Below are positions 3,032-36,613 of a DNA stretch of 64,000 nt, in pieces; positions within the stretch are counted from its first letter, which is position 1, and each line of letters starts with the position of its first letter. The notes beneath the pieces are model-generated. The model saw only the letters and a list, made by a program, of their open reading frames with translations, did no database searches and was not told where the DNA came from. The stretch comes from Angustibacter luteus. Its GTDB lineage: Bacteria; Actinomycetota; Actinomycetes; Actinomycetales; Angustibacteraceae. The stretch spans positions 298,005 through 362,004 of the forward strand of contig NZ_BAABFP010000004.1 in the NCBI RefSeq assembly GCF_039541115.1, written 5' to 3'. The position numbers were made by a program, and so were the translations under genes.

Positions 3032-5168
3032 TCAGCGGGATGGCCAGGGTGAAGCCGACGGCCGGGATCGCCGTCCCGGAGTCGTTGACCGCGAAGCCGA
3101 TGCCGAGCAGCAGCAGCAGGCAGCCCAGGCCCTGGCGCAGGGTGGGGCTGCGGTCGTAGGCCCGTTGCAGCGCACCGGCTCCGACGGACGACGGCCGCAT
3201 CAGCACCAGCACCACGAACAGCGCCGCGAAGGGCACCAGGATCGACAGGACGCTGCCGAACAGGATCGACAGGTTCTGCTCGCCCTTGCGGGAGATGACC
3301 TGCCAGGCGCCGCCGTCGATCACGGTCTGCACGAACCGGCCCAGGTGGGTCTGGCTGTCGGTCGGCCGCAGCCAGTCCAGCACCGAGACCACCGTGAGCA
3401 TGGCCACCGTGCCGACGCCGATCAGGATCACCTTGCGCCAGGTCAGCCGGATGCCGAGCACCAGCAGGGTCAGCACCGCGAACGCCGGGACCATGCCCAG
3501 CGGCCCGCCGAAGTCGCTGCCCCACGCGGGGCTCACGTCCAGGGCCGTGGCGATGACGCCGATCAGCGCCACCGCGGCGGCGGCGACCTTGCGGCGTCCG
3601 GACTGGACGAAGTGGTCGGCCACCGCGATGGCGAACAGCATCGCGCCGGTGCCGAAGAGGGCGAAGGCCACGTTGGAGAAGCCGTAGAACCGCCCGGCCA
3701 CCACGGGTTGCAGGCCCATCAGGCTCGAGGTCTGCAGCCGCGACCCGGTCACGATGTCGGCGGCCAGCACCAGCGACGTCAGCCCGGCGACCGCGCCGAA
3801 CGGGCCGAGCAGCCGGCGGCGCCACGGGCCGAGCTGAGCGACCAGCGTCAGGGCCGTCACGTAGGCCGCGACGACCAGCACGACCATCAGCAGCGCGTGC
3901 TGGTAGCGCCACCACGGCACGGTGTTGGCCAGGTACGTCGACACCGGGACGCACGCGAACACGAGCGCGGTCCGGCGCACCAGCGTCAGCAGCCGGCGGC
4001 GCTTCGACCCGGACGCCCAGCGGTGCCGCAGCACGATCGCGGCGCCGCCGTACAGCAGCAGCTGCGCGATCACCAGGCCGTTGAAGAACGGCGCCACCAG
4101 CTTCTGCACGCGCTGCGCGGCCTGGTCGAGGTCGCTGACCTTCTCGAGCCGGTCGGCCGCGCTGGCCGGCGCCTGCCCGGAGGCCACCGACCGGTTCGTG
4201 ATGGGTGAGCCGACCAGGGTGTTCGGCTCCGGGACGTCGAGCAGGTGCAGCAGGGTCGGCGTCACGTCCGTGGCCTGCACGAGCGCCACCTGCCGGGTGG
4301 ACGACGTCCACAGCCAGCCCGGCCCGTAGCCGGGACCGGTCGCCGCGCCCAGCTGCAGGTGCGGCGTCGCCCCCGCGTCAGCCAGCGACAGCACGAGGAC
4401 GCGAGCGCCGTCCGGCACGGCCGCCAGCACCTGGCCGACGGCGTCGTCCACGGCCTTCACCTGCTCGGCGCGCGAGCCGTCGGTGATCGCCACGCCCTGC
4501 TCGGCCGGCCCCGGCAAGGGGTCGCCCGGGTCACGCACCGCGCCGACGTCCACGACGGTCAGCGGGCAGTCGGACGACGACAGCGCGCCGCCGAGCCCGG
4601 TCAGCGGGCTGTACCGGGCGACGGTGCCGTCACGGCGCGCCAGGGCGGCCGCCGCACCCGGCCCGACCGCGGTAGCGCACACGTCCGCCGTGGCCAGGGT
4701 GTCGCCGAGCAGACCGGGTGTGGCGTCGAACTTCTCGCCGTCCGCCTCTGTGACGTACCGCGGCCAGGTGGTCACGGTGGCGGAGCCGAGGGGGGCGACG
4801 CCGCCGCTCACCTCGACGGGCCGGCACACCCGCACCGCGGGGTCCTTCGCCTTCGGGTCGCGCTCGTCGGCGGCCCGGCGTCCGGACGAGACCGCGAGCC
4901 AGCCGTCCACCGGGCACGCAGCGGGCTTCACGCTGCGCACGGTCACGTCCCCGATCGAGCCGACCTGCGCGAGCCGCGCCAGGTTGGGGGTCGCTTGCGC
5001 CGAGACGTCCGACCACTGCACGCCGCCGGTGCCGATCAGCACGACCGGGGCGACCGGACCGGACGGCGCCGCGGCCGCGCTCGGCGCCACGGCCGCGGTC
5101 GCGGTCGCACTCAGACCCAGGGCGCTGATCCCCAGCAGAACGGCGACGAGGCGTGGTCGGATCGGCAC
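2919..5168 (-). CDS. Membrane protein with exported alkaline-phosphatase-like domain
   Basis: 749 aa from GTG at 5168. A signal peptide with Ala-rich cleavage region (about residues 1-35) precedes an extracytoplasmic domain of about 330 residues. In that domain VVLIGTGGVQW, TPNLARLA and CPVDGWLAVSSG recall the alkaline phosphatase/sulfatase fold. About ten membrane segments follow, with a Pro/Ala-rich tail. Metal ligands could not be assigned, so catalysis is unproven. TACTCT (minus strand, 5175-5180) lies 6 nt before this GTG; GTG 5174 is the alternative. The 3' end runs 113 nt into the convergent mannosyltransferase gene. Adjacent glycosyltransferases suggest an envelope role. Specific function unknown. 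Confidence 0.7.
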   Translation of the reverse strand: MPIRPRLVAVLLGISALGLSATATAAVAPSAAAAPSGPVAPVVLIGTGGVQWSDVSAQATPNLARLAQVGSIGDVTVRSVKPAACPVDGWLAVSSGRRAADERDPKAKDPAVRVCRPVEVSGGVAPLGSATVTTWPRYVTEADGEKFDATPGLLGDTLATADVCATAVGPGAAAALARRDGTVARYSPLTGLGGALSSSDCPLTVVDVGAVRDPGDPLPGPAEQGVAITDGSRAEQVKAVDDAVGQVLAAVPDGARVLVLSLADAGATPHLQLGAATGPGYGPGWLWTSSTRQVALVQATDVTPTLLHLLDVPEPNTLVGSPITNRSVASGQAPASAADRLEKVSDLDQAAQRVQKLVAPFFNGLVIAQLLLYGGAAIVLRHRWASGSKRRRLLTLVRRTALVFACVPVSTYLANTVPWWRYQHALLMVVLVVAAYVTALTLVAQLGPWRRRLLGPFGAVAGLTSLVLAADIVTGSRLQTSSLMGLQPVVAGRFYGFSNVAFALFGTGAMLFAIAVADHFVQSGRRKVAAAAVALIGVIATALDVSPAWGSDFGGPLGMVPAFAVLTLLVLGIRLTWRKVILIGVGTVAMLTVVSVLDWLRPTDSQTHLGRFVQTVIDGGAWQVISRKGEQNLSILFGSVLSILVPFAALFVVLVLMRPSSVGAGALQRAYDRSPTLRQGLGCLLLLLGIGFAVNDSGTAIPAVGFTLAIPLIIAASVQALEDDERRASPAPAAAPARSTEPSPGDSPA

Positions 5169-18972: not shown

Positions 18973-21264
18973 CTACTGCTCCGGGGCGACTTCGAACCAG
19001 ACCACCTTGCCCGCGACGTCGTCGGACACCCCCCAGGACGTGGAGAGCAGGTCGAGGATGTCCAGGCCGCGGCCGTCCAGCGCGTCGTCCTGGCGCTCGG
19101 CCCGCAGCGGGTGCCGGGAGTTGTCGTCGCCGACCTCCACCCGGATCCGGTCGGTTCGCATGATCAGCCGGAGCCGGGCCTCGCTGCGGCCGTGGATGAA
19201 CGCGTTCGTCACGGTCTCGCTGGTCAGCAGGACGACCGTCTCGGTCGTGGCGATCAGGTACCCGGCCTGCCGGCAGTGCTGCTGGACGAACGAGCGAGCG
19301 CGACGGACGGCCCCGACGTCCGGCGGCAGCACCAGGGACACGTCCGAGCGACGGGCCGGCGTCGGAGCCCGGAGCTCGCTGTCCGCGCGGTCCGCGCGGT
19401 CGTCGGGGGCGTCCACCGCGGACCGGACGAACGTCGGCAGCTCCCCCGAGTCGTCCACCGGGTTGCAGCGGATCGCCAGCAGCGCGACGTCGTCCTCGGC
19501 GTCCGTGGGCAGCTCGCCCAGCAGCGCGTCGCACAGCGAGCCCAGCGGCAGGTTGGCGAGGGCCTGCACCCGGTGCCGCAGCCACTCCAGCCCCTGGGTC
19601 AGGGACTCGCCGCGCCGCTCCACCAGGCCGTCGGTGTACAGCAGCAACGTCATCCCCGGCTCCATCACGAGCCGGTGGTCGGTGCGCGCGGTCCCGGGCA
19701 GCAGGCCCAGCAGCAGCTCGGGCTCACTGACCAGCAGCTCGCCCTGCCCGTCCGCCGTCAACAGGATCGGTGGCGGGTGCCCCGCGTTCGACCAGCGCAG
19801 CGACCGCGTCACCGTCGTCCGGTCGCCCTCGACCTCGGCCTGCAGGTCCCGCTCGACCCGAGCCAGCACCGCGGTGGCCAGCGCGTCGACGTCCAGGTCC
19901 CGCAGCGCGTGGTCCAGACCCGTGAGCACCTCGGCCGGCGAGCCGTCCAGGCTGTGGGCCACCCCGCGCAGGACACCGCGCACCTGGGCCATCGAGGCGG
20001 TGGCCAGCCGGTCGTGCCCGGCGACGTCCCCGATCACCAGCATCGTGTCGCCGTCCGGCAGCGCGAAGGAGTCGTACCAGTCCCCGCCCACGTAGGCCTC
20101 GCGGGCCGCCGGCAGGTAGCGGGCGACCAGCTGCAGGTGCGCGGGCTGCGCCGGGTCGGTGAGCAGGCTGCGCTGCAGCGACTCCGACAGCAGTCGGGAC
20201 GACATCGTCGCCTCCCGCTCGGCCTGGCGCGCCTGGATCCGTTGCAGCGCCTGGGCGCACTGGGCCGCGAACGCCGCCAGCAGCTCCTTCTCGTCGAGGG
20301 TGAAGGCGCGGGGCTCCACCCAGCTGACGGTCAGTGACCCGAGCAGCCGACCCTCGGCCAGCAGCGGCAGGGAGGCCCACGCGTCGCAGCCGGACGTCGC
20401 GTAGACGAGCTGCATCTCCTCGCCCCAGGCCAGTCCCTCGTCCCGGTTGCCCAGGTAGATCGGCTCCGGCACCACTGCGGCCACCACCGACGGCAGACGG
20501 GTCGACGTCGGCATCTCCTGGCGCAGCCGCTGACCCTCGCGGCGGGTGTCCGTGATGGTCAGCCGCACCACCTGGTCCTGGTCGTCGCGCACCGCCACAC
20601 CGCCGCCGTCGCAGCCCATCGCCGCGACGCCGCGGACCACGATGAGGTCGGTGAGCTCCTCGACGGAGTCCGCCGCGGCCAGCTCGAGGGCGACGAACGC
20701 GAGGCCCTGCAGCCGCCGTCCGACCTGGGCCTCCGCCGCGCTGAGGACGGCCATCTCGCGCTGCTGGACCACCAGGTCCGACTCCAGCCGCTGCGCGTGC
20801 TCCAGGAGCTCGACCTCGCGGCGCTCGTGCACCCGGCGCCGCTCCTCGTCGTGCACCGTGGCGGTCACGTCCGCGACGGTGCTGAGGACCAACCGGGTGT
20901 CCTTCGTGTCCTCGAGCGGCGAGTTCGTGACCGACCACCAGCGCTCGACGAAGGTCCCCGAGTCGGCGGGCAGCTCGATGTCGTGCCGCATGCGGGGGAC
21001 GACGTGCGTCGCTCCGCTGTGCAGGGCGCGGGCGACGGAGTCGGTCAGCGGGCCGCCGGGGCCGACGACGCCGGGCTGGTCCGGGTTGGTGGGGAAGCTG
21101 TCCGCCACCGGACGGCCGACCAGCTGGTCGCGGCTGCGCCCGGTGAGCGCCAGCAACGCGTCGCTGACGGCGACGACCACGAGCTGCTCGTCCAGCAGCC
21201 AGCAGGGCAGCGGGACCGCAGCCAGGACGGCCCGGTAGTCGAGGACGGCATGCTCGTCCGCCAC
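18973..21264 (-). CDS. PAS-GAF-PP2C(SpoIIE)-HATPase stress regulator (RsbU/RsbW-like fusion)
   Basis: 763 aa from GTG 21264, with a strong GGAGGGAGG 3 nt upstream. Order of parts: PAS (about 8-130), short helix, GAF (about 175-345), PP2C phosphatase (about 365-580) with GGDWYDSFALPDG, IGDVAGHD, NAGHPPP, YTDGLVE and DDVALLA, then an anti-sigma-type HATPase (about 630-760) with ETVTNAFIHG, VEVGDDNS and DGRGLDIL. A protein able both to dephosphorylate an anti-anti-sigma STAS factor and to act as its kinase. A STAS protein is at 52647. Diverges from the ADGG operon. Confidence 0.9.
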   Translation of the reverse strand: MADEHAVLDYRAVLAAVPLPCWLLDEQLVVVAVSDALLALTGRSRDQLVGRPVADSFPTNPDQPGVVGPGGPLTDSVARALHSGATHVVPRMRHDIELPADSGTFVERWWSVTNSPLEDTKDTRLVLSTVADVTATVHDEERRRVHERREVELLEHAQRLESDLVVQQREMAVLSAAEAQVGRRLQGLAFVALELAAADSVEELTDLIVVRGVAAMGCDGGGVAVRDDQDQVVRLTITDTRREGQRLRQEMPTSTRLPSVVAAVVPEPIYLGNRDEGLAWGEEMQLVYATSGCDAWASLPLLAEGRLLGSLTVSWVEPRAFTLDEKELLAAFAAQCAQALQRIQARQAEREATMSSRLLSESLQRSLLTDPAQPAHLQLVARYLPAAREAYVGGDWYDSFALPDGDTMLVIGDVAGHDRLATASMAQVRGVLRGVAHSLDGSPAEVLTGLDHALRDLDVDALATAVLARVERDLQAEVEGDRTTVTRSLRWSNAGHPPPILLTADGQGELLVSEPELLLGLLPGTARTDHRLVMEPGMTLLLYTDGLVERRGESLTQGLEWLRHRVQALANLPLGSLCDALLGELPTDAEDDVALLAIRCNPVDDSGELPTFVRSAVDAPDDRADRADSELRAPTPARRSDVSLVLPPDVGAVRRARSFVQQHCRQAGYLIATTETVVLLTSETVTNAFIHGRSEARLRLIMRTDRIRVEVGDDNSRHPLRAERQDDALDGRGLDILDLLSTSWGVSDDVAGKVVWFEVAPEQ

Positions 21265-21517
21265 GGCCCTCCCTCCGCAGTCCTTGGCTGCCGCCATTGG
21301 CCGCCCATCGATCCCCGCACCCTGCGTGCGTCCCCAGAGTCTCCACCAGGATGCGCTCCGAACGCGACGCATCGGACATGTCGCCGCCAATTCCACCCCA
21401 TCGGGCCTGTCCGCCTGGAGGGACGCGCCTTCCGTGCTCGCGCTCTGAGTGGCAGGGTCCGGCCTGGGGGGCTAGGTATGAACCTCACGACCCCGCACGC
21501 GACTCGAGGAGGAACCC
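21265..21517. promoter_or_regulatory. Divergent intergenic region with plus-strand promoter for the ADGG operon
   Basis: A possible sigma-70-type promoter reads rightward: TGGCAG (21450-21455), 17-nt spacer, TAGGTA (21473-21478). A leader of about 35 nt then ends in a strong AGGAGG (21507-21512), 5 nt before ATG 21518. No obvious operator palindrome or minus-strand promoter was found in the rest of the region. Confidence 0.45.
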
Positions 21518-21799
21518 ATGAGCGACGACACCCAGGACCCGACCACGGAAGGCCCCGCCGACGGCGGTGCCAGCGGCACGCCCGGCCAGCACGACGGTGG
21601 TGCTGACGGTGGCGCGGATGGCGGTGCTGACGGTGGCGCTGACGGCGGTGCTGACGGTGGCGCCGATGGCGGTGCTGACGGTGGCGCCGATGGCGGTGCT
21701 GACGGTGGCGCTGACGGCGGCGCTGACGGTGGTGCTGACGGTGGTGCTGACGGTGGCGCTGACGGTGGCGCCGATGGCGGTGCTGACGGCAGCGCCTGA
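21518..21799 (+). CDS. (Ala-Asp-Gly-Gly)15 repeat peptide, possible modified-peptide precursor
   Basis: 93 aa. Residues 1-28 are an acidic Thr/Pro/Gly leader (MSDDTQDPTTEG...) ending in HDGG. Then come fifteen perfect ADGG repeats (21602-21781) and a final ADGSA. No Cys, Lys, Arg or aromatic residue and no signal peptide. Strong AGGAGG. Its TGA is followed immediately by the GTG of the JmjC oxygenase, so the two are translationally coupled. All base differences among the fifteen repeats are synonymous third positions, which favours a real, selected protein. Candidates: substrate of the neighbouring oxygenase, or a calcium/metal-binding low-complexity protein. Function unknown. Confidence 0.7.
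   Translation: MSDDTQDPTTEGPADGGASGTPGQHDGGADGGADGGADGGADGGADGGADGGADGGADGGADGGADGGADGGADGGADGGADGGADGGADGSA
21602..21796 (+). repeat. 12-bp tandem repeat array encoding ADGG
   Basis: Fifteen 12-bp units plus a degenerate sixteenth, with consensus GCT GAC GGT GGC. GCC-GAT-GGC-GGT units alternate with GCT-GAC-GGT-GGC units, suggesting growth by duplication of 24-bp pairs. Because no unit contains a stop in any frame, all six frames are open here. Confidence 0.95.
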
Positions 21800-23053
21800 G
21801 TGCAACCCGCTCCGCCGGCGCAGGTGCCCGGGCTGACGCCCGGGCACCTCGCCCTGCCACGGTTGGTGTCCGCCGACCCGGACGCCTTCGCCCGCGAGGT
21901 CTGGGGTCACGAGGCCTGGCTCAGCCAGGCGGCTGACCTGCCCGGCGACGTCCACGACCTGCTGGACGCCGACGCCGTCGACGAGCTGGTCTCGTCGCGC
22001 GGGCTGCGCACCCCGTTCCTGCGGGTCGCCAAGAACGGCAGCACCCTGCCCGACCGGTCCTTCACCGCCGGCGGCGGCATCGGCGCCGCCGTGGGCGACC
22101 AGATCAGCGACGACAAGCTGCTGCGGCTGTTCGCGGACGGCGCGACGCTCGTCCTGCAGGGCCTGCACCGCACCTGGCCGCCGCTGGTCGCGTTCTGCCA
22201 GCAGCTCGCGGCCGAGCTCGGGCACCCGGTGCAGGCCAACGCGTACGTGACGCCGCCGCAGTCGCAGGGCTTCGACGACCACTACGACGTGCACGACGTG
22301 TTCGTCCTGCAGGTCGAGGGTGAGAAGCGCTGGCGGATCCACGCCCCGGTGCACGAGGCGCCGCTGCGCGACCAGCCCTGGACGGACCGCCGCCAGGACG
22401 TCGCCCGGGCCGCCGCCACCGAGCCGCTGCTCGACGTTGTCCTCACCCCCGGTGACTGCCTCTACCTGCCGCGCGGCTTCCTGCACGCGGCGACCGCGCT
22501 CGGCGCGGTCAGCACCCACCTCACGCTCGGGGTGCACACCTGGACCCGGCACTCGCTGGCGCAGCAGGTCCTGGACCAGGCCCTCGCCAGCCTCGCCGCC
22601 GACCCTCAGGTGCGGCACTCGCTCGCCCTGGGCGCGGACGTCGCGGACCCCACGGCCATCGCCGACGACCTCGAGCTGATCCGCGGACGCCTGCTGGACG
22701 CCGTCCGGGACGTTGACGCGGCCGCGGTGGCCCAACGGCTGGCGGCGCACCGGCTGGCCGCTCAGCGCGCCGCGCCGGTCGCACCCCTCGCCCAGCTGCG
22801 CGAGGCGGCAGCGCTGACCGACGACGCTCCTCTACCAGCCGGGCTCGCGCTCCGTGCGCACCTGCTGCCGCAGCTGGTCGACGAACCCGACGGCGGAGCG
22901 GTCCTGCGCAGCCGGGCCGGCGACGTCCGGCTCCAGGCCGACCAGGTGGACTCCGTGCGCGAGCTCCTCAAGACCGGGCGCGCCGACGACCTCGGGTCTG
23001 CCCTGGCCCGCACCCTGCTGCTCACCGGGATCCTCGTAGCGCCGAACCGATGA
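21800..23053 (+). CDS. JmjC/cupin_4 family Fe(II)/2-oxoglutarate oxygenase
   Basis: 417 aa from GTG 21800, directly after the stop of the ADGG peptide. It belongs with YcfD/RoxA-type ribosomal oxygenases (cupin_4). The iron ligands are visible as H161-x-D163 (DDHYDVHDVFVLQVEGEKRW) and distal H229 (GDCLYLPRGFLHAA), on a double-stranded beta-helix. The C-terminal helical/winged region (about 255-417) fits the dimerisation and substrate-binding part of YcfD. Expected reaction: hydroxylation of a peptide side chain. The coupled repeat peptide is a natural candidate substrate (inference). The stop overlaps the ferredoxin-like gene by 4 nt. Confidence 0.88.
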   Translation: MQPAPPAQVPGLTPGHLALPRLVSADPDAFAREVWGHEAWLSQAADLPGDVHDLLDADAVDELVSSRGLRTPFLRVAKNGSTLPDRSFTAGGGIGAAVGDQISDDKLLRLFADGATLVLQGLHRTWPPLVAFCQQLAAELGHPVQANAYVTPPQSQGFDDHYDVHDVFVLQVEGEKRWRIHAPVHEAPLRDQPWTDRRQDVARAAATEPLLDVVLTPGDCLYLPRGFLHAATALGAVSTHLTLGVHTWTRHSLAQQVLDQALASLAADPQVRHSLALGADVADPTAIADDLELIRGRLLDAVRDVDAAAVAQRLAAHRLAAQRAAPVAPLAQLREAAALTDDAPLPAGLALRAHLLPQLVDEPDGGAVLRSRAGDVRLQADQVDSVRELLKTGRADDLGSALARTLLLTGILVAPNR

Positions 23054-23994
23054 CCGACACGACCTTCCGCTGCGCCGACGCCGCTCGCGACCGGGACGAC
23101 CCGATGGTGGGGACGGCGGCCCCGGCGCGCCGCTGGCTGCTGATCGAGCACCCGGGGCCGTGGGCGCCGGAGGCGTTCGCGGAGTCCGGCATCGAGCGCG
23201 GCGTCCAGGAGCAGCTGCGCTCGGCGGCAGGGGCGTCCGGTGCCCGGATCCTGCTGGTGCGCCGTCCGGGGCGGGCGGACCCGCAGCGCGGTCCGCGGGC
23301 GTGGGCCGTGGTGGACCACGCGTCCGGCGTCCCCTCGGTGTGGGGCACGTGGACCGAGGACGGCGACCTGCTGGACGCTGCGCTCGCCCTGGATCCCGAG
23401 CGGGCGCCGGTCGGTCCGGTGCACGCCGCCGAGGAGCCCGTGCTGCTGGTGTGCACGCACGGCCGGCACGACACGTGCTGCGCGATCCGCGGTCGCCCGG
23501 TGGCGGCGGCGCTGGCGCAGCGCTGGCCGGACTGGACCTGGGAGTGCTCGCACGTCGGCGGCGACCGGTTCGCGGCCAACGTCGTGCTGCTCCCGGACGG
23601 CGCGTACTACGGCTACCTGGACGCCGAGTCCGCGGTGCGGGTGGTCGAGCAGCACCTGGCCGGCCGGGTCGATGCCGACTTCCTGCGGGGGCTGTCCACC
23701 GAGCCGCCGGTGGTGCAGGCCGCCGTCGTGGAAGCGTTGCGGCAGTGGGGTCCTGTCGGTGCTCGGACGTTCCGCTCGGTGCACCTGGAGGCGTTGGACG
23801 ACGGCGGCTGGCGGGTCGAGCTGGCCGGGCAGCCGGGGGCCGGCGTGCCGGACCGGGTGGGCCTCACGGTGCGACGAGCGACCCGCGCCGCCGCGCAGCT
23901 CACCTGCCGCGCCGGCGGCCCGGCCGCCTCGACGACGTACGAGGTGGTGGACGCGCGGGTGCTCGGGCCGACCTCGCCGGATGCGGCAGGATGA
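23050..23994 (+). CDS. Sucrase/ferredoxin-like (thioredoxin-fold 2Fe-2S) protein
   Basis: 314 aa. The core LLVCTHGRHDTCCAIRGRPVAAAL, with C135, C143 and C144, and WECSHVGGDRFAANVVLLPDG, with C166, are diagnostic of the sucrase/ferredoxin-like family, which has a thioredoxin-like ferredoxin fold. A further Cys is at residue 8. Cluster ligation is inferred. Overlaps the JmjC gene (ATGA), suggesting it feeds electrons to, or repairs the iron of, that oxygenase. No partner reductase is next to it. Confidence 0.87.
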   Translation: MTDTTFRCADAARDRDDPMVGTAAPARRWLLIEHPGPWAPEAFAESGIERGVQEQLRSAAGASGARILLVRRPGRADPQRGPRAWAVVDHASGVPSVWGTWTEDGDLLDAALALDPERAPVGPVHAAEEPVLLVCTHGRHDTCCAIRGRPVAAALAQRWPDWTWECSHVGGDRFAANVVLLPDGAYYGYLDAESAVRVVEQHLAGRVDADFLRGLSTEPPVVQAAVVEALRQWGPVGARTFRSVHLEALDDGGWRVELAGQPGAGVPDRVGLTVRRATRAAAQLTCRAGGPAASTTYEVVDARVLGPTSPDAAG

Positions 23995-23998
23995 CCGC

Positions 23999-24796
23999 AT
24001 GCGGATGGTGGCGACCGACCTCGACGGCACGATCGTCGGAGCGGACGGCGCGGTCAGCGCTCGCACGGTCGCGGCCCTGCAGGCCTGCCAGGACGCCGGG
24101 GTGCTCGTCGTCTACGTGACCGGCCGGCCGGTCCGCTGGATGGCCGAGGTGGTGGAGCAGACCGGGCACAGCGGGATCGCCCTGTGCGGCAACGGCGCCG
24201 TGGTCTACGACCTCGCCGCCGAGCAGGTGGTCACGGCGCGCACGCTGTCACCGGAGGTGGCGGTGGAGGTGGCCGACCGGCTGCGCGCGTCCATGTCGGA
24301 CGCCCAGTTCGCCGTCGAGACGCTGGCCGGGTTCCGGCTCGAGCCGGGCTTCCAGCCGCACTGGGACGACGCCTTCCGGCCGTTCCCCGAAGGTGACCTC
24401 GGGCAGCTGCTGGCCGACGACCCTGGCCTGCTGAAGCTCTTGTGCCGCAGCGAGTCCCGGCTGGCCGACGACATGCTGGCCCGGGCGATCCAGGCGCTGG
24501 ACGGGCTGGCCGCCCCCACCCACTCGAACCCGCGGGACTGCCTGCTGGAGGTCTCGGCGCTCGGCGTCGGCAAGGCGAGCGCGTTGGCCGAGCTGGCCGC
24601 CGAGCACGGCATCGACCCGGCGGATGTCGTCGCCTTCGGGGACATGCCGAACGACCTGGACATGCTCGCCTGGGCCGGCCGCGGCTACGCGATGGACGGC
24701 GGGCACGCCGACGTCCTGGCTGTGGCCCAGCACGTCGCGCCGCCGATCCACGAGGACGGCGTCGCCCAGGTCCTGGAGTCCCTCCTCGCCCCCTGA
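23999..24796 (+). CDS. Cof-type HAD-superfamily phosphatase
   Basis: 265 aa. Motif I ATDLDGTIVG, motif II YVTGRP, motif III Lys in LGVGKASAL and motif IV AFGDMPNDLDM are intact, with a type IIB cap. Substrate unknown (sugar phosphates or nucleotide-related compounds are usual). Starts 4 nt after the ferredoxin-like gene, so it may belong to that operon. However, CAGGAT (23987-23992) lies 6 nt before the ATG, so it may also have its own leaderless promoter. Paralogue of the gene at 16066. Confidence 0.88.
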   Translation: MRMVATDLDGTIVGADGAVSARTVAALQACQDAGVLVVYVTGRPVRWMAEVVEQTGHSGIALCGNGAVVYDLAAEQVVTARTLSPEVAVEVADRLRASMSDAQFAVETLAGFRLEPGFQPHWDDAFRPFPEGDLGQLLADDPGLLKLLCRSESRLADDMLARAIQALDGLAAPTHSNPRDCLLEVSALGVGKASALAELAAEHGIDPADVVAFGDMPNDLDMLAWAGRGYAMDGGHADVLAVAQHVAPPIHEDGVAQVLESLLAP

Positions 24797-32812: not shown

Positions 32813-35800
32813 ATGCTGCGTAACCGAGGGATCAGGACCAAGCTACTTGCGGTCCTGGCACTACCGATCGTCGTGCTGATCATCGGTGCTGCCGTCATCT
32901 CTGCCCAGGGATTCACCCGAGCAGCGCAGGCCGCGAAGGTCGAGAAGCTGGCCAACGGTGGCAGCGCGCTCGGTGACCTGATCACGCGCCTGCACCAGGA
33001 GCGCACGCTCGCCGTGCAGGTCGCCAACGGCACCGCCACGCCCGAGCAGGTGAAGCAGCTGAAGGGCGCGCAGGGCGGCACCGACAAGGCCGTGCTCGAG
33101 ACCCGCAGCTTCGTGCAGAGCCTGAGCCTCAGCTCGCTGTCGCAGGAGGCCATCCAGGCCGTCGCGGCGTCCGAGGCCGGCCACATGCAGCTGCCCGCCG
33201 TCCGCGCGGACGTCGTCAGCGGCCACGGCCAGCCCGACCAGATCGCCGCCAAGTACGACGACATGATCGCGCTGGACGCCGAGCTGCCGGCCCGCATCGG
33301 TGACTCGCTGACCGACCGCCGGATCGGCCGCAGCCTCGTCGCCTACGCCAACCTCGCCAACCTCGTCGAGAGCGCCAGCCAGGAGGCCGAGATCGGCGCC
33401 GTGGCCGTCGCGACCAAGGGCATCGACGCCCAGACCGCGGTCAAGCTCTCGCTGCTGCAGTCCGCGCAGAACCAGCAGGTCGAGGCCTTCCGCCTGAACG
33501 CCAACTCGCACCTCGCGAGCATGATGGACACCGCGCTGTACCAGCCCATCGAGTCCCGCGCCGCGTTCAACACCGAGCGCGCGGACATCATGGGCAGCCT
33601 GGGCGGCACGCCGACCGTCACCACCCAGCACGACTGGATCAAGAACGCCGGCCAGCGAGTGACGTCGCTCTCCGCGCTGCTGCAGCCGCTGGCCCAGCAG
33701 ACCGCGAAGGACGCGTCCGCCGCGGCCGCCGACGCCCGCCGTTCGGCCGTCATCATCCTGGCCGCCAGCCTCATCATCGTCGCCTTCGTCATCGTGCTGG
33801 GTCTCTTCCTGGCTCGCGCCATGACCCGCCCGCTGCGCCGCCTGACCGTCACCGCTGGTGAGCTCGCCGACGAGCTGCCGAAGATGGTCGAGCGGATGGC
33901 CACGCCGGGCGAGGGCCCGGGTGTCCAGCTGCCCGAGATCGAGGTCTACTCCGAGGACGAGGTCGGCCGCCTGGCCGAGGCGTTCCGGAACGTCAACGAG
34001 ACCACGGTCCGGGTCGCCGAGGAGCAGGCGGCACTGCGCGCCTCGATCGCGGAGATGTTCGTCAACGTCGCCCGGCGCAACCACGTCCTGCTCTCGCGCC
34101 AGCTGTCCTTCATCGACCAGCTGGAGCGCACCGAGGAGAACCCGGACACGCTGGACAACCTGTTCCGCCTGGACCACCTCGCCACCCGGATGCGTCGGAA
34201 CGCCGAGTCGCTGATCGTCCTCGCGGGCCTGGACAGCGGTCGTCGTCTGCGTCGTTCCATGCCGCTGTCCGACGTGATCCGCACCGCCGTGTCCGAGATC
34301 GAGCGGTACGACCGCGTCGACCTCGCGCTGCAGGCGGACCCGCCGCTCGTCGGCCACGTCGCGCTGACCACGGCGCACATGATCGCCGAGCTGCTGGAGA
34401 ACGCGACCCAGTTCTCCAACCCGGACACCCGCGTGGTGACCTCGACCGCCTTCAGCAGCACCGGCGTCCGCGTCACCATCACCGACCTCGGCCTGGGCAT
34501 GACCTGGGACGAGATCACCGACGCCAACCAGCGCATCGCCAACCCGCCGGTCACCGACGTGGTCGGCTCGCAGCGCCTCGGCTTCTACGTGGTCGGCCGC
34601 CTGGCCCGCCGCCTGGACGCCACCGTCGCGCTGCGCCCGGGTCGCACCCAGGGCACGGTCGTCACCATCGACCTGCCCCCGGCGCTCTTCGTCCCGGGCA
34701 CCGTCTCGGACCTGGCCGTCAGCGACCTGGAGGCCAGCGACCTGCCGGCCATCGAGTCGAGCTCGTCCGACCAGCCCGTGTCCGACTCGGCGCCGATGCT
34801 GCCGAGCCTGCCCAGCCTGCCGGCCGCCCCCAGCGCGCCGGTCCCCGCCCCGGCCGGCTTCGACGTGCCCGTCGTCGCCTCCGACTCCGGAGTCGACCTG
34901 CCGCGCCGCGGCCAGGTGGACGCCGTCGTGGACGCCGGTGCGGACGAGGCGCGGGTCGAGCCGCGGGTGCCGGTGCAGCCGGCCCCCGAGGCCTTCGTCG
35001 ACGCGACCGGTGACGGCGCCTCGCTGCCCAAGCGCGGCACCGCCCCGATCGAGGCCGCTCCCGCGGTCGACGTCGCGGCCGCTCCGCCGCCGCCGCGGTC
35101 GGGCATGTTCAACAGCTTCCGCTCACGTCGCGACGTCGACGAGACGGTCGACACCACCGTCCCCGAGGTGCCCGCGCTGAGCACCCCGCTGGACGACGGC
35201 ACCGGCGAGGTCTTCGTCCCGGTCCTCGAGGAGGCCACGCCGGCTCTGCCGACCCGTGACGTCGCCGAGGTCGTCGAGGCTCCTGCGGCTGAGGTCGAGG
35301 AGGTCGAGGAGGTCGAGGCCACTGAGGCCGAGGTCGCCGAGGTCGCCGAGGTCGAGGTCGTGGAGGCCACGCCGGGTCCGCTGGACGCCGGCTGGGTCCC
35401 CGAGGCCGACGCCGAGTGGGTCCCCGAGGCCACGGAGGCTACGGAGACCGCGGAGGCCACGGAGACCGCTGAGGTCGAGGCCGTCGAGGTCGAGGCTGCT
35501 GAGGTCGAGGCCGTCGAGGTCACCGAGCCGTCGTTCGAGTTCGAGCCGGCTTTCGAGCCGGTCGCCGAGCTCGAGCCCGAGACCGCGTCGCTGGCCTTCG
35601 TCCCGGCACTGGAGCTCGAGCCGGTCGCCGAGGTCGAGCCCGTCGCCGAGGTCGAGGTCGAGGTCGAGGTCGAGCCCGAGGTCGAGCCCGAGGTCGAGCC
35701 GGTCAGCGCATCCGCTGCGCAGGACGGTCCGGACGCCCGCTCCACGCTCAGCGAGCTGGCCCGTGAGGCCCGCGCCGCTGGCGACGAGGCGCTGCACGGA

Positions 35801-36613
35801 CAGCCCGAGGACGTCGTCGAGGACGAGCCGCAGGTTCCCGCGGTCCCGGCGCTGCCGCCGGTCGGGGTGCCCGCGATGGACATCCTGCCCGCTCGTGGTG
35901 GCCGCGGCCGCCTCGGACGGCGCTCGCCGAAGCCCGCCCCGGCCCCCGCGCCGGTGCAGCAGGCGAAGTCGTGGCCGACGCCGTCGCCGATCCCGGCGGC
36001 CCGTCAGCCGGAGCCGTCGGCCCCGGTCACCCCGGTGGCACCGGTCGCTCCGGTCGCTCCGGCCGTGCCCGAGCCCGCCACCTCGGTGTTCGCTCCGGTT
36101 CCGGCTCCCGCGCCGGTGGAGTACCAGGAGCCGGTGCCTGCACCGTCCTCCTTGTTCGCCCCGGTCCAGCCGGCCGCACCGGTCGAGTACCAGGAGCCCG
36201 TGCCCGCGCCGTCCTCCCTGTTCGCCCCGGCGATCAGCGAGGCCGACGAGCCGGCCTTCCAGCCGTCGTTCGAGCCTGCTGTCCCGGCCCTCGCGGCCGC
36301 CGTCAGCCTGCGCGAGCGCTCCGCCATGGCCTCCGAGGCGCTCTCCGAGCTGTCTGCGCTGTCGACGTACAGCCCGCAGGCCGTGGAGGAGACCGCCCCG
36401 GCGTCCCTGACCCGACGCACGCCGTTGGCGACCGAGGCCGGCCAGATGGCCTCGCGACCCGCGGCGGATGAGCCCCTCGGCGCCCGCCGTGGAGCCCGCA
36501 ACGCGGCAGACGTCCGCACCATGCTCAGCGGCTTCCGGGCCGGCGTGGAGCGTGGCCGTACGTCGCCGGCAAGTCACAGCAGCAACTCGGCTACCGAGGA
36601 CGCAGACGCCTGA
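32813..36613 (+). CDS. cvnA: Conservon sensor CvnA: nitrate/nitrite-sensor (NIT) histidine-kinase-like protein
   Basis: 1266 aa. TM1 (about 10-32), extracytoplasmic NIT domain (about 45-305), TM2 (about 310-332), HAMP, kinase-like helix pair (LDHLATRMRRNAESLIVLAG near 455) and an HATPase domain to about 620 (ENATQFSNP, ITDLGLGM, GFYVVGRLARRLDA). A tail of about 640 residues is rich in Pro, Ala, Glu and Val, with VEVEVEVEPEVEPEVE-like runs and two copies of PVEYQEPVPAPSSLFAP. Leads cvnABCD. CvnA signals to the small GTPase complex encoded downstream; phosphotransfer is not established for the family. Confidence 0.92.
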   Translation: MLRNRGIRTKLLAVLALPIVVLIIGAAVISAQGFTRAAQAAKVEKLANGGSALGDLITRLHQERTLAVQVANGTATPEQVKQLKGAQGGTDKAVLETRSFVQSLSLSSLSQEAIQAVAASEAGHMQLPAVRADVVSGHGQPDQIAAKYDDMIALDAELPARIGDSLTDRRIGRSLVAYANLANLVESASQEAEIGAVAVATKGIDAQTAVKLSLLQSAQNQQVEAFRLNANSHLASMMDTALYQPIESRAAFNTERADIMGSLGGTPTVTTQHDWIKNAGQRVTSLSALLQPLAQQTAKDASAAAADARRSAVIILAASLIIVAFVIVLGLFLARAMTRPLRRLTVTAGELADELPKMVERMATPGEGPGVQLPEIEVYSEDEVGRLAEAFRNVNETTVRVAEEQAALRASIAEMFVNVARRNHVLLSRQLSFIDQLERTEENPDTLDNLFRLDHLATRMRRNAESLIVLAGLDSGRRLRRSMPLSDVIRTAVSEIERYDRVDLALQADPPLVGHVALTTAHMIAELLENATQFSNPDTRVVTSTAFSSTGVRVTITDLGLGMTWDEITDANQRIANPPVTDVVGSQRLGFYVVGRLARRLDATVALRPGRTQGTVVTIDLPPALFVPGTVSDLAVSDLEASDLPAIESSSSDQPVSDSAPMLPSLPSLPAAPSAPVPAPAGFDVPVVASDSGVDLPRRGQVDAVVDAGADEARVEPRVPVQPAPEAFVDATGDGASLPKRGTAPIEAAPAVDVAAAPPPPRSGMFNSFRSRRDVDETVDTTVPEVPALSTPLDDGTGEVFVPVLEEATPALPTRDVAEVVEAPAAEVEEVEEVEATEAEVAEVAEVEVVEATPGPLDAGWVPEADAEWVPEATEATETAEATETAEVEAVEVEAAEVEAVEVTEPSFEFEPAFEPVAELEPETASLAFVPALELEPVAEVEPVAEVEVEVEVEPEVEPEVEPVSASAAQDGPDARSTLSELAREARAAGDEALHGQPEDVVEDEPQVPAVPALPPVGVPAMDILPARGGRGRLGRRSPKPAPAPAPVQQAKSWPTPSPIPAARQPEPSAPVTPVAPVAPVAPAVPEPATSVFAPVPAPAPVEYQEPVPAPSSLFAPVQPAAPVEYQEPVPAPSSLFAPAISEADEPAFQPSFEPAVPALAAAVSLRERSAMASEALSELSALSTYSPQAVEETAPASLTRRTPLATEAGQMASRPAADEPLGARRGARNAADVRTMLSGFRAGVERGRTSPASHSSNSATEDADA

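Follow-up and report, generated by a model that had tools for sequence, protein, structure and literature searches.

A repeat peptide, a JmjC oxygenase and a ferredoxin-like protein in Angustibacter luteus: a candidate peptide-modification cassette of the Actinomycetota

Can a small gene, much of whose product is one repeated tetrapeptide, encode the dedicated substrate of the oxygenase encoded directly behind it? The question is raised by a locus of Angustibacter luteus (assembly GCF_039541115.1, contig NZ_BAABFP010000004.1, positions 298,005 to 362,004; this whole stretch of 64,000 nucleotides is called the window). Here, a gene for an Asp-rich repeat peptide is followed on the same strand by a gene for a JmjC-type Fe(II)/2-oxoglutarate (2OG) oxygenase and a gene for a Suc_Fer-like protein with a predicted [2Fe-2S] cluster. 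The three genes probably form a dedicated peptide-modification cassette, of a new class resembling the ribosomally synthesized and post-translationally modified peptides (RiPPs), in which an enzyme of the ribosomal oxygenase (ROX) type repeatedly beta-hydroxylates Asp and the [2Fe-2S] protein helps. The sequences themselves show that the genes stay linked, that Asp is constant, that the catalytic residues are intact, that the Suc_Fer protein has a cassette-specific HxGGD motif and that the peptides of the distant clade have a leader and a core. The identity of the substrate, the hydroxylation of Asp, the redox role and the binding of metal are what we infer beyond that.

The locus and its repeat peptide

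The peptide gene (21518..21799, plus strand) encodes 93 amino acids. Direct reading shows an AGGAGG ribosome-binding site 5 nt ahead of its ATG, and the site as a whole, GAGGAGGAA, occupies 21506..21514 on the plus strand. The translation reads MSDDTQDPTTEGPADGGASGTPGQHDGG(ADGG)15ADGSA and opens with a short acidic stretch (MSDDTQDPTT), continues with one incomplete copy of a 23-residue repeat typical of the family (EGPADGGASGTPGQHDGG) and ends in (ADGG)15-ADGSA, in agreement with an earlier note on this DNA, which had described an acidic leader followed by (ADGG)15. The stop codon of the peptide (TGA, 21797-21799) abuts the GTG start of the oxygenase gene at 21800 (spacing 0 nt). The oxygenase gene (21800..23053, plus strand, 417 amino acids) in turn overlaps the Suc_Fer gene (23050..23994, plus strand, 314 amino acids) by 4 nt (spacing -4 nt), so both junctions are as the note had placed them. 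The genome holds one PF08007 gene and one PF06999 gene, both at this locus.

The core is encoded by a tandem array with a 12-nt unit and a 24-nt higher-order unit (21593..21790, plus strand; Tandem Repeats Finder scores 240 and 284). Among the 16 ADG[GS] units, which as copied units are not independent, variation touches all four third codon positions; of the eight positions that are first or second in their codons, just one varies, and that one a single time (Gly to Ser). Judged by its codons, the ADGG repeat is no DNA-level accident, and a chance repeat was rejected on this third-position variation together with a control for Asp at random positions, given below. An exact search for (ADGG)2 in the 4.16-Mb genome returned this array alone. 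DGGADGGA matches in G193 were set aside as chance because they lie inside an open reading frame (ORF) resembling an acyl-CoA dehydrogenase, the enzyme being named by eye.

The peptide among relatives

A single scan of species genomes turned up 47 near loci, in genera that include Streptomyces, Nocardioides, Microlunatus, Mumia, Brevibacterium, Brachybacterium, Serinicoccus, Leucobacter and Rothia; the best segments of their oxygenases are 49-62% identical. A DGG- or Asp-repeat peptide is encoded immediately 5' of the oxygenase in 46 of the 47, including one with ADHG repeats (L050) and one whose N-terminus is missing at a contig end (L051); at the 47th (L033) a contig end cuts the peptide, and its final residues are visible. 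At 42 of the 47, a Suc_Fer gene lies 3' of the oxygenase in the same orientation. An ATG or GTG start was assigned automatically at 28 of 44 near loci (16 were unassigned, and the assignments at L019 and L021 are implausible); among these 28, the peptide stop overlaps the oxygenase start by 4 nt at 10 loci and by 1 nt at 4. By eye, AGGAGG-like sites stand ahead of many of the relatives' peptide ORFs. At L053 of Streptomyces sp. WAC08241 (3338-4153), the peptide is in frame with an oxygenase that is itself split by a frameshift, either a fusion or a sequencing error.

The usual repeat of the near peptides is EGPADGGAAGTPGVHDGGADGGA (23 amino acids). In 108 in-register copies from 35 loci, collected with a pattern that does not require Asp, D5, D16 and D20 are invariant (108/108), as are G6, G7 and G21, and the His position holds His in 80, Gln in 27 and Arg in one. 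When the register test is dropped, Asp is found at D5 in 116, at D16 in 109 and at D20 in 108 of 117 copies, the remainder being repeats of other length. In the window peptide, L041 and L054, the 23-mer is mostly replaced by plain ADGG. The near peptides carry roughly 10 to 25 Asp each. Of 44 near peptides, 9 contain no His and the window peptide has a single one, which disfavors His as a target.

A profile of 25 oxygenases (alignment A1: the window and 24 of the 47 near loci) was then used to search a sample of 296 Actinomycetota genomes at a cut-off of E <= 1e-30. The family was found in 41 of them (the window's genome counted) and in 33 of 199 genera, so the cassette is not peculiar to one strain. 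Ten matches, the window among them, score above 420 bits and all others below 281 bits. All 41 non-window sampled regions were retrieved, and 35 have an Asp-containing repeat peptide immediately upstream; the remaining six are L106, L107 and L125, plus L097, L127 and L128, which are cut by contig ends. The low-scoring loci mostly have a DADGTDGDATD-like core after an LTDEDIETV-like leader. Repeats of other kinds occur at L102 and L119, the latter with two copies of a 23-residue repeat.

These distant forms bear directly on which residue is the target. With G6, G7 and G21 as constant as Asp in the 23-residue repeat, only the distant clade separates the two residues, and there Gly is often substituted and Asp retained (as in DADASDADA and TDTTDSTDT). 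The earlier note had proposed Asp or Gly as the substrate residue; Asp is left as the best-fitting target, constant throughout the sequences compared, and Gly loses ground. Among the sampled loci, a pattern derived from these same peptides detected the leader motif automatically at 22 of 28 that score low and at 3 of 9 that score high, compared with 2.6% of shuffled leaders (from all 37), and several of the misses show the motif by eye. A design of leader and core is clear in the low-scoring loci.

The association of peptide and oxygenase was also compared with chance. For this, Asp was counted in whichever 30 consecutive residues of an upstream ORF hold most of it, and the counts were set against those at 639 positions picked at random within the loci, which are not independent trials because they are related by descent. 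Of 56 high-scoring oxygenases (the window counted), 55 reach at least five Asp, compared with 32 of 639 random positions; of 33 low-scoring oxygenases (L053 being grouped with these because of its frameshift), 26 reach at least ten, compared with 1 of 639 random positions. The low-scoring count becomes 25 if L119 is dropped, where the wrong ORF was counted here and in the leader test.

Core type also follows the kinship of the enzymes. On a tree of 59 oxygenases (the window, 19 of the 47 near, 36 of the 41 sampled and 3 from plasmids), labels were given to the peptides by script: 27 DGG, 22 DxD, 7 other and 3 unlabelled. The DGG core requires 4 changes compared with 19.0 after shuffling, and the DxD core 3 compared with 17.5, in each case with 0 of 500 shuffles as low. 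The types are clustered on the tree without one clean split, and rows that are kin cluster anyway.

In the sampled set, Suc_Fer adjoins the oxygenase in 31 of the 41 non-window loci. Taken together, there are 73 non-window loci with an oxygenase/Suc_Fer pair, in 3 of which the upstream side is cut (L033, L097 and L128). A repeat or Asp-rich peptide is present in 70 of the 70 that can be assessed, and the peptide is retained at loci where Suc_Fer is missing. The earlier note had assigned the peptide to one system with the oxygenase and had proposed a survey of actinobacterial oxygenase/Suc_Fer pairs for any that lack a peptide, which it named as a refutation; such pairs number 0 of 70, so the proposal withstood this test. 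The spread across the phylum, the leader in distant forms and the specialized Suc_Fer described below go beyond what that note had claimed. Phages gave no match, and among plasmids 108 records carry distant relatives, none of which reaches 80% coverage.

Other peptides stand before PF08007 enzymes at a few loci. A long-branch clade of the family with no adjacent Suc_Fer (L107, L125 and L131, the last at 3698-3835) has small peptides with an AARxRA stretch and a GRSDGND end, in one case on a Streptomyces virginiae plasmid with an aldo/keto reductase, and looks like a second peptide class for these enzymes. On a Streptomyces clavuligerus plasmid (L129, 4799-4945), a PF08007 enzyme follows a 48-residue peptide with a leader of similar kind (LEPDEIEVI) and an Asp/Pro core, with an S9 peptidase and an ABC transporter nearby.

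ORFs of at least 80 amino acids were clustered across 67 loci (47 near and 20 of the 41 sampled), and no cluster beyond the cassette recurs in more than five of them. The HAD-family hydrolase gene that starts 5 nt past the Suc_Fer gene in the window (23999-24796, by Pfam) is left out of the cassette for this reason. Upstream lies a divergent PAS/GAF/SpoIIE-type gene (18973-21396, minus strand, by Pfam). A promoter and terminator scan found nothing, and Rfam gave no match. Elsewhere in the window, at 35261-35700 and 36087-36230, there are more tandem repeats, acidic (GAG GTC / GCC) and 66-nt.

The oxygenase and its iron-sulfur partner

The second ORF matches PF08007 (JmjC_2, also cupin_4; E 2.4e-29), bearing out the note's cupin_4/JmjC protein with an H161-x-D163...H229 triad. 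H161 (22280-22282), D163 (22286-22288), K176 (22325-22327) and H229 (22484-22486), all on the plus strand, are identical in 59 of 59 aligned oxygenases, together with H165 and D166, and the motifs HxDxHD and GxKxW are present in 89 of 89. K176, in the GxKxW motif, is taken by us to be the 2OG-binding Lys. The AlphaFold2 model (mean predicted local distance difference test score, pLDDT, 90.3) is matched by Foldseek to NO66 (4e4h_C) with E 1.4e-23 and a template-modelling score of 0.63 to the query, at 24% identity. By this model, the architecture is of the ROX type. In ROX-type enzymes a winged helix is expected C-terminally; the C-terminus of the model consists of helices and strands, and the NO66 match spans 468 columns. 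A 2OG/Fe(II) mechanism is presumed from the family.

The third ORF matches PF06999 (Suc_Fer-like, E 4.8e-22). Its AlphaFold2 model (mean pLDDT 89.2) has a thioredoxin-fold [2Fe-2S] ferredoxin domain, with Z 10.0 and a root-mean-square deviation of 2.0 over 87 residues to 1m2a_B. The candidate site residues on the plus strand are C135 (23452-23454), C143 (23476-23478), C144 (23479-23481), H168 (23551-23553) and D172 (23563-23565), the last two within the HxGGD motif. A gapless extension of the alignment places H168 and D172 on C55 and C59 of the Aquifex ferredoxin, and the cluster site is likely made of Cys, Cys, His168 and Asp172. The thioredoxin fold that the earlier note had read from the sequence was recovered, and a plain four-Cys ferredoxin site was not.

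HxGGD is found in 72 of 74 cassette Suc_Fer proteins; one is unreadable (L053), and one has HxGGC (L104), a natural ligand swap. A PF06999 set of 30 loci from 198 genomes includes 19 away from cassettes, and the 18 of these that can be read all have HxGGH. G139, which has the oxygenase with no Suc_Fer nearby, also has HxGGH in its unlinked Suc_Fer. The linked protein is, by sequence, a specialized, cassette-specific HxGGD form (alignment A2 has 20 rows, the window and 19 of the 42 near Suc_Fer proteins). Since the last position of HxGG[HDC] is His, Asp or Cys, the comparison suggests that it is a cluster ligand. If so, such proteins would offer a natural [2Fe-2S] set with His, Asp or Cys at one ligand position, in which ligand swap can be compared with function.

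A predicted pathway, its rivals and its nearest known systems

An enzyme acting on a multi-site substrate would be the simplest reading of the sequences because the peptide tracks the oxygenase more strictly than it tracks Suc_Fer, the core stays Asp-repetitive and its type clusters with oxygenase kinship. One RiPP trait is present in that a small precursor gene stands beside a dedicated modifying-enzyme gene, conserved across species. The first gene would encode a precursor in which a short N-terminal segment precedes the Asp-repeat core, and the second a JmjC oxygenase gripping it via that segment or via the repeats. The oxygenase would then hydroxylate the core Asp residues successively at the beta carbon with Fe(II), 2OG and O2, beta-hydroxylation being the chemistry to be expected of such an enzyme on Asp. 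The third gene, usual and dispensable, would provide a [2Fe-2S] protein with altered ligands for electron supply, for ferrous upkeep of the oxygenase iron or for completing a second oxidation. What results would be a poly-beta-hydroxyaspartyl peptide, highly anionic and with a capacity to bind Ca2+ or Fe3+, a role that is a guess from the charge of the peptide. Since no protease or exporter is conserved, it may act whole or be processed by housekeeping enzymes. That all this amounts to a phylum-wide RiPP class, with poly-beta-hydroxyaspartate made by a ROX-type JmjC enzyme and a dedicated Cys2-His-Asp [2Fe-2S] protein to serve, inside the cell or after export, as a polyanion for Fe3+ or Ca2+, is put forward tentatively, as plausible rather than probable. 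If true, a large set of so far unassigned bacterial JmjC proteins would have a substrate, and an iterative Asp-hydroxylating class would be added to the ribosomal peptides, with roughly 10 to 25 Asp served by one or two enzymes.

Several observations weigh against Asp hydroxylation by a dedicated cassette. The relatives with named substrates (NO66, MINA and YcfD) act, by name, on His or Arg; another relative is an asparaginyl hydroxylase, and that only putatively, and no relative has a name that points to Asp. In the near peptides, Gly outnumbers Asp (35% compared with 15%). Suc_Fer is absent at five of the 47 near loci (L010, L037, L038, L051 and L054) and from the retrieved stretch in 9 of 40 assessable sampled loci, L121 not being judgeable because its contig ends. 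The N-terminus of the window peptide is short and not clearly leader-like, and its subclade has no DEDIETV-like leader. L106, with a near oxygenase, has an acidic peptide with no repeats upstream, and the distant L107 and L125 have a different small peptide with the RSDGND end. The upstream peptide ORFs of the sampled loci were chosen for their Asp content, which the control offsets only partly. Finally, unlike most RiPP loci, the 67 clustered loci have no conserved protease or exporter beside the cassette among ORFs of at least 80 amino acids.

The oxygenase could modify the peptide otherwise, by oxidizing the alpha carbon of Gly or Ala, with backbone cleavage to follow, or by desaturation or cross-linking, which we regard as rather unlikely. 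Gly flanks Asp in the window clade and is equally constant there, and a 2OG dioxygenase reportedly forms RiPP macrocycles (Xia 2025, JACS, going by the title). A 2OG-dependent HExxH enzyme that hydroxylates a string of Gln and cleaves the backbone is described in the accessible part of PMC12636437, which also cites the work on macrocycles. However, it is Asp and not Gly or Ala that the distant clade keeps, no partner residue for a cross-link is seen to be kept throughout, and wherever a solved ROX relative has a named activity, the name is that of a hydroxylase or a demethylase.

A reading in which the peptide is no substrate at all is less probable still. It could serve the oxygenase as an acidic chaperone or regulator, for instance by imitating an acidic stretch of the ribosome, with the oxygenase directed at a ribosomal or other protein; by name, the nearest relatives of solved structure (NO66, MINA53 and YcfD) are ribosomal-protein hydroxylases, and the lack of a conserved protease or exporter would fit as well. 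We consider this unlikely, given a peptide that is found even where Suc_Fer is not, and whose repeats vary in number and type, stay Asp-repetitive and cluster by type on the oxygenase tree, as a multi-site substrate might. The unmodified peptide could also buffer Ca or Fe, loading or protecting both iron proteins, each with a predicted need for iron, and it is strongly anionic, but simple buffering needs neither a peptide type matched to the oxygenase nor a design of leader and core, and we find this very improbable. Of course, GC-rich 12-nt arrays open several frames, and a functionless low-complexity ORF might stand before the oxygenase by chance. Already disfavored, that explanation is hardly credible beside repeat peptides at 47 near loci and 35 of 41 sampled non-window matches, synonymous variation and good ribosome-binding sites at many loci.

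The ROX enzymes (NO66, MINA53 and YcfD/RoxA) share with the cassette oxygenase the family PF08007, a similar modelled fold, the HxD...H triad and the GxKxW lysine. The cassette enzyme differs in sitting after an Asp-repeat peptide gene, a context that implies no ribosomal substrate and points to the peptide rather than a ribosomal protein. HxDxHD, found in all 89 cassette-family oxygenases, reads HYDDIE in NO66. For the Suc_Fer protein the nearest comparison is yeast Apd1, which we take to be a PF06999 protein with a motif that we would word as HxGGH. Its cluster ligands are given as two Cys and two His in the portion of PMC11126956 available to us; the cassette proteins retain the thioredoxin-like ferredoxin fold, the Cys pair and the first His and have Asp in place of the second His in those 72 of 74.

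Hydroxylation of ribosomal precursors by JmjC/cupin enzymes has a precedent in the ornithine hydroxylases of the biphenomycin-type RiPPs (BipG, BpmG and PbsQ), of which BipG and PbsQ are the examples acting on a precursor ornithine, according to the available parts of PMC12707348 and PMC12257519. There, it is one step among several, with a multinuclear non-heme iron-dependent oxidative enzyme (MNIO), a radical S-adenosylmethionine enzyme, an arginase and a protease, and it concerns one ornithine; the cassette oxygenase is the only enzyme shared by all loci and would face many Asp. Ribosomal peptides with beta-hydroxy-Asp, the group to which the product is predicted to belong, are also known from MNIO enzymes, namely PesHI (PMC13060819) and PflD (PMC12636437). 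As far as the accessible text of these papers goes, those systems differ in enzyme type, in their single named sites and in their precursors.

A survey of RiPP recognition elements (PMC12710340) reports, in its available part, fish and algal JmjC domains (PF08007) that are fused to folds resembling such elements and have distant homologues in bacteria, where the contexts are RiPP-like; its main text has neither "cupin" nor "ferredoxin", and the available part names no Asp-repeat precursor. A Streptomyces cupin cluster is mentioned in PMC13118837, in whose accessible text DGG and BatC have 0 occurrences. The note had known of no described system with this gene set, and the open-licence literature, searched for the peptide motifs as well, likewise yielded no description of the cassette. 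Set beside these systems, the cassette is apparently undescribed, a RiPP-like arrangement with a new type of precursor, a new pairing of enzyme and substrate and a new redox partner.

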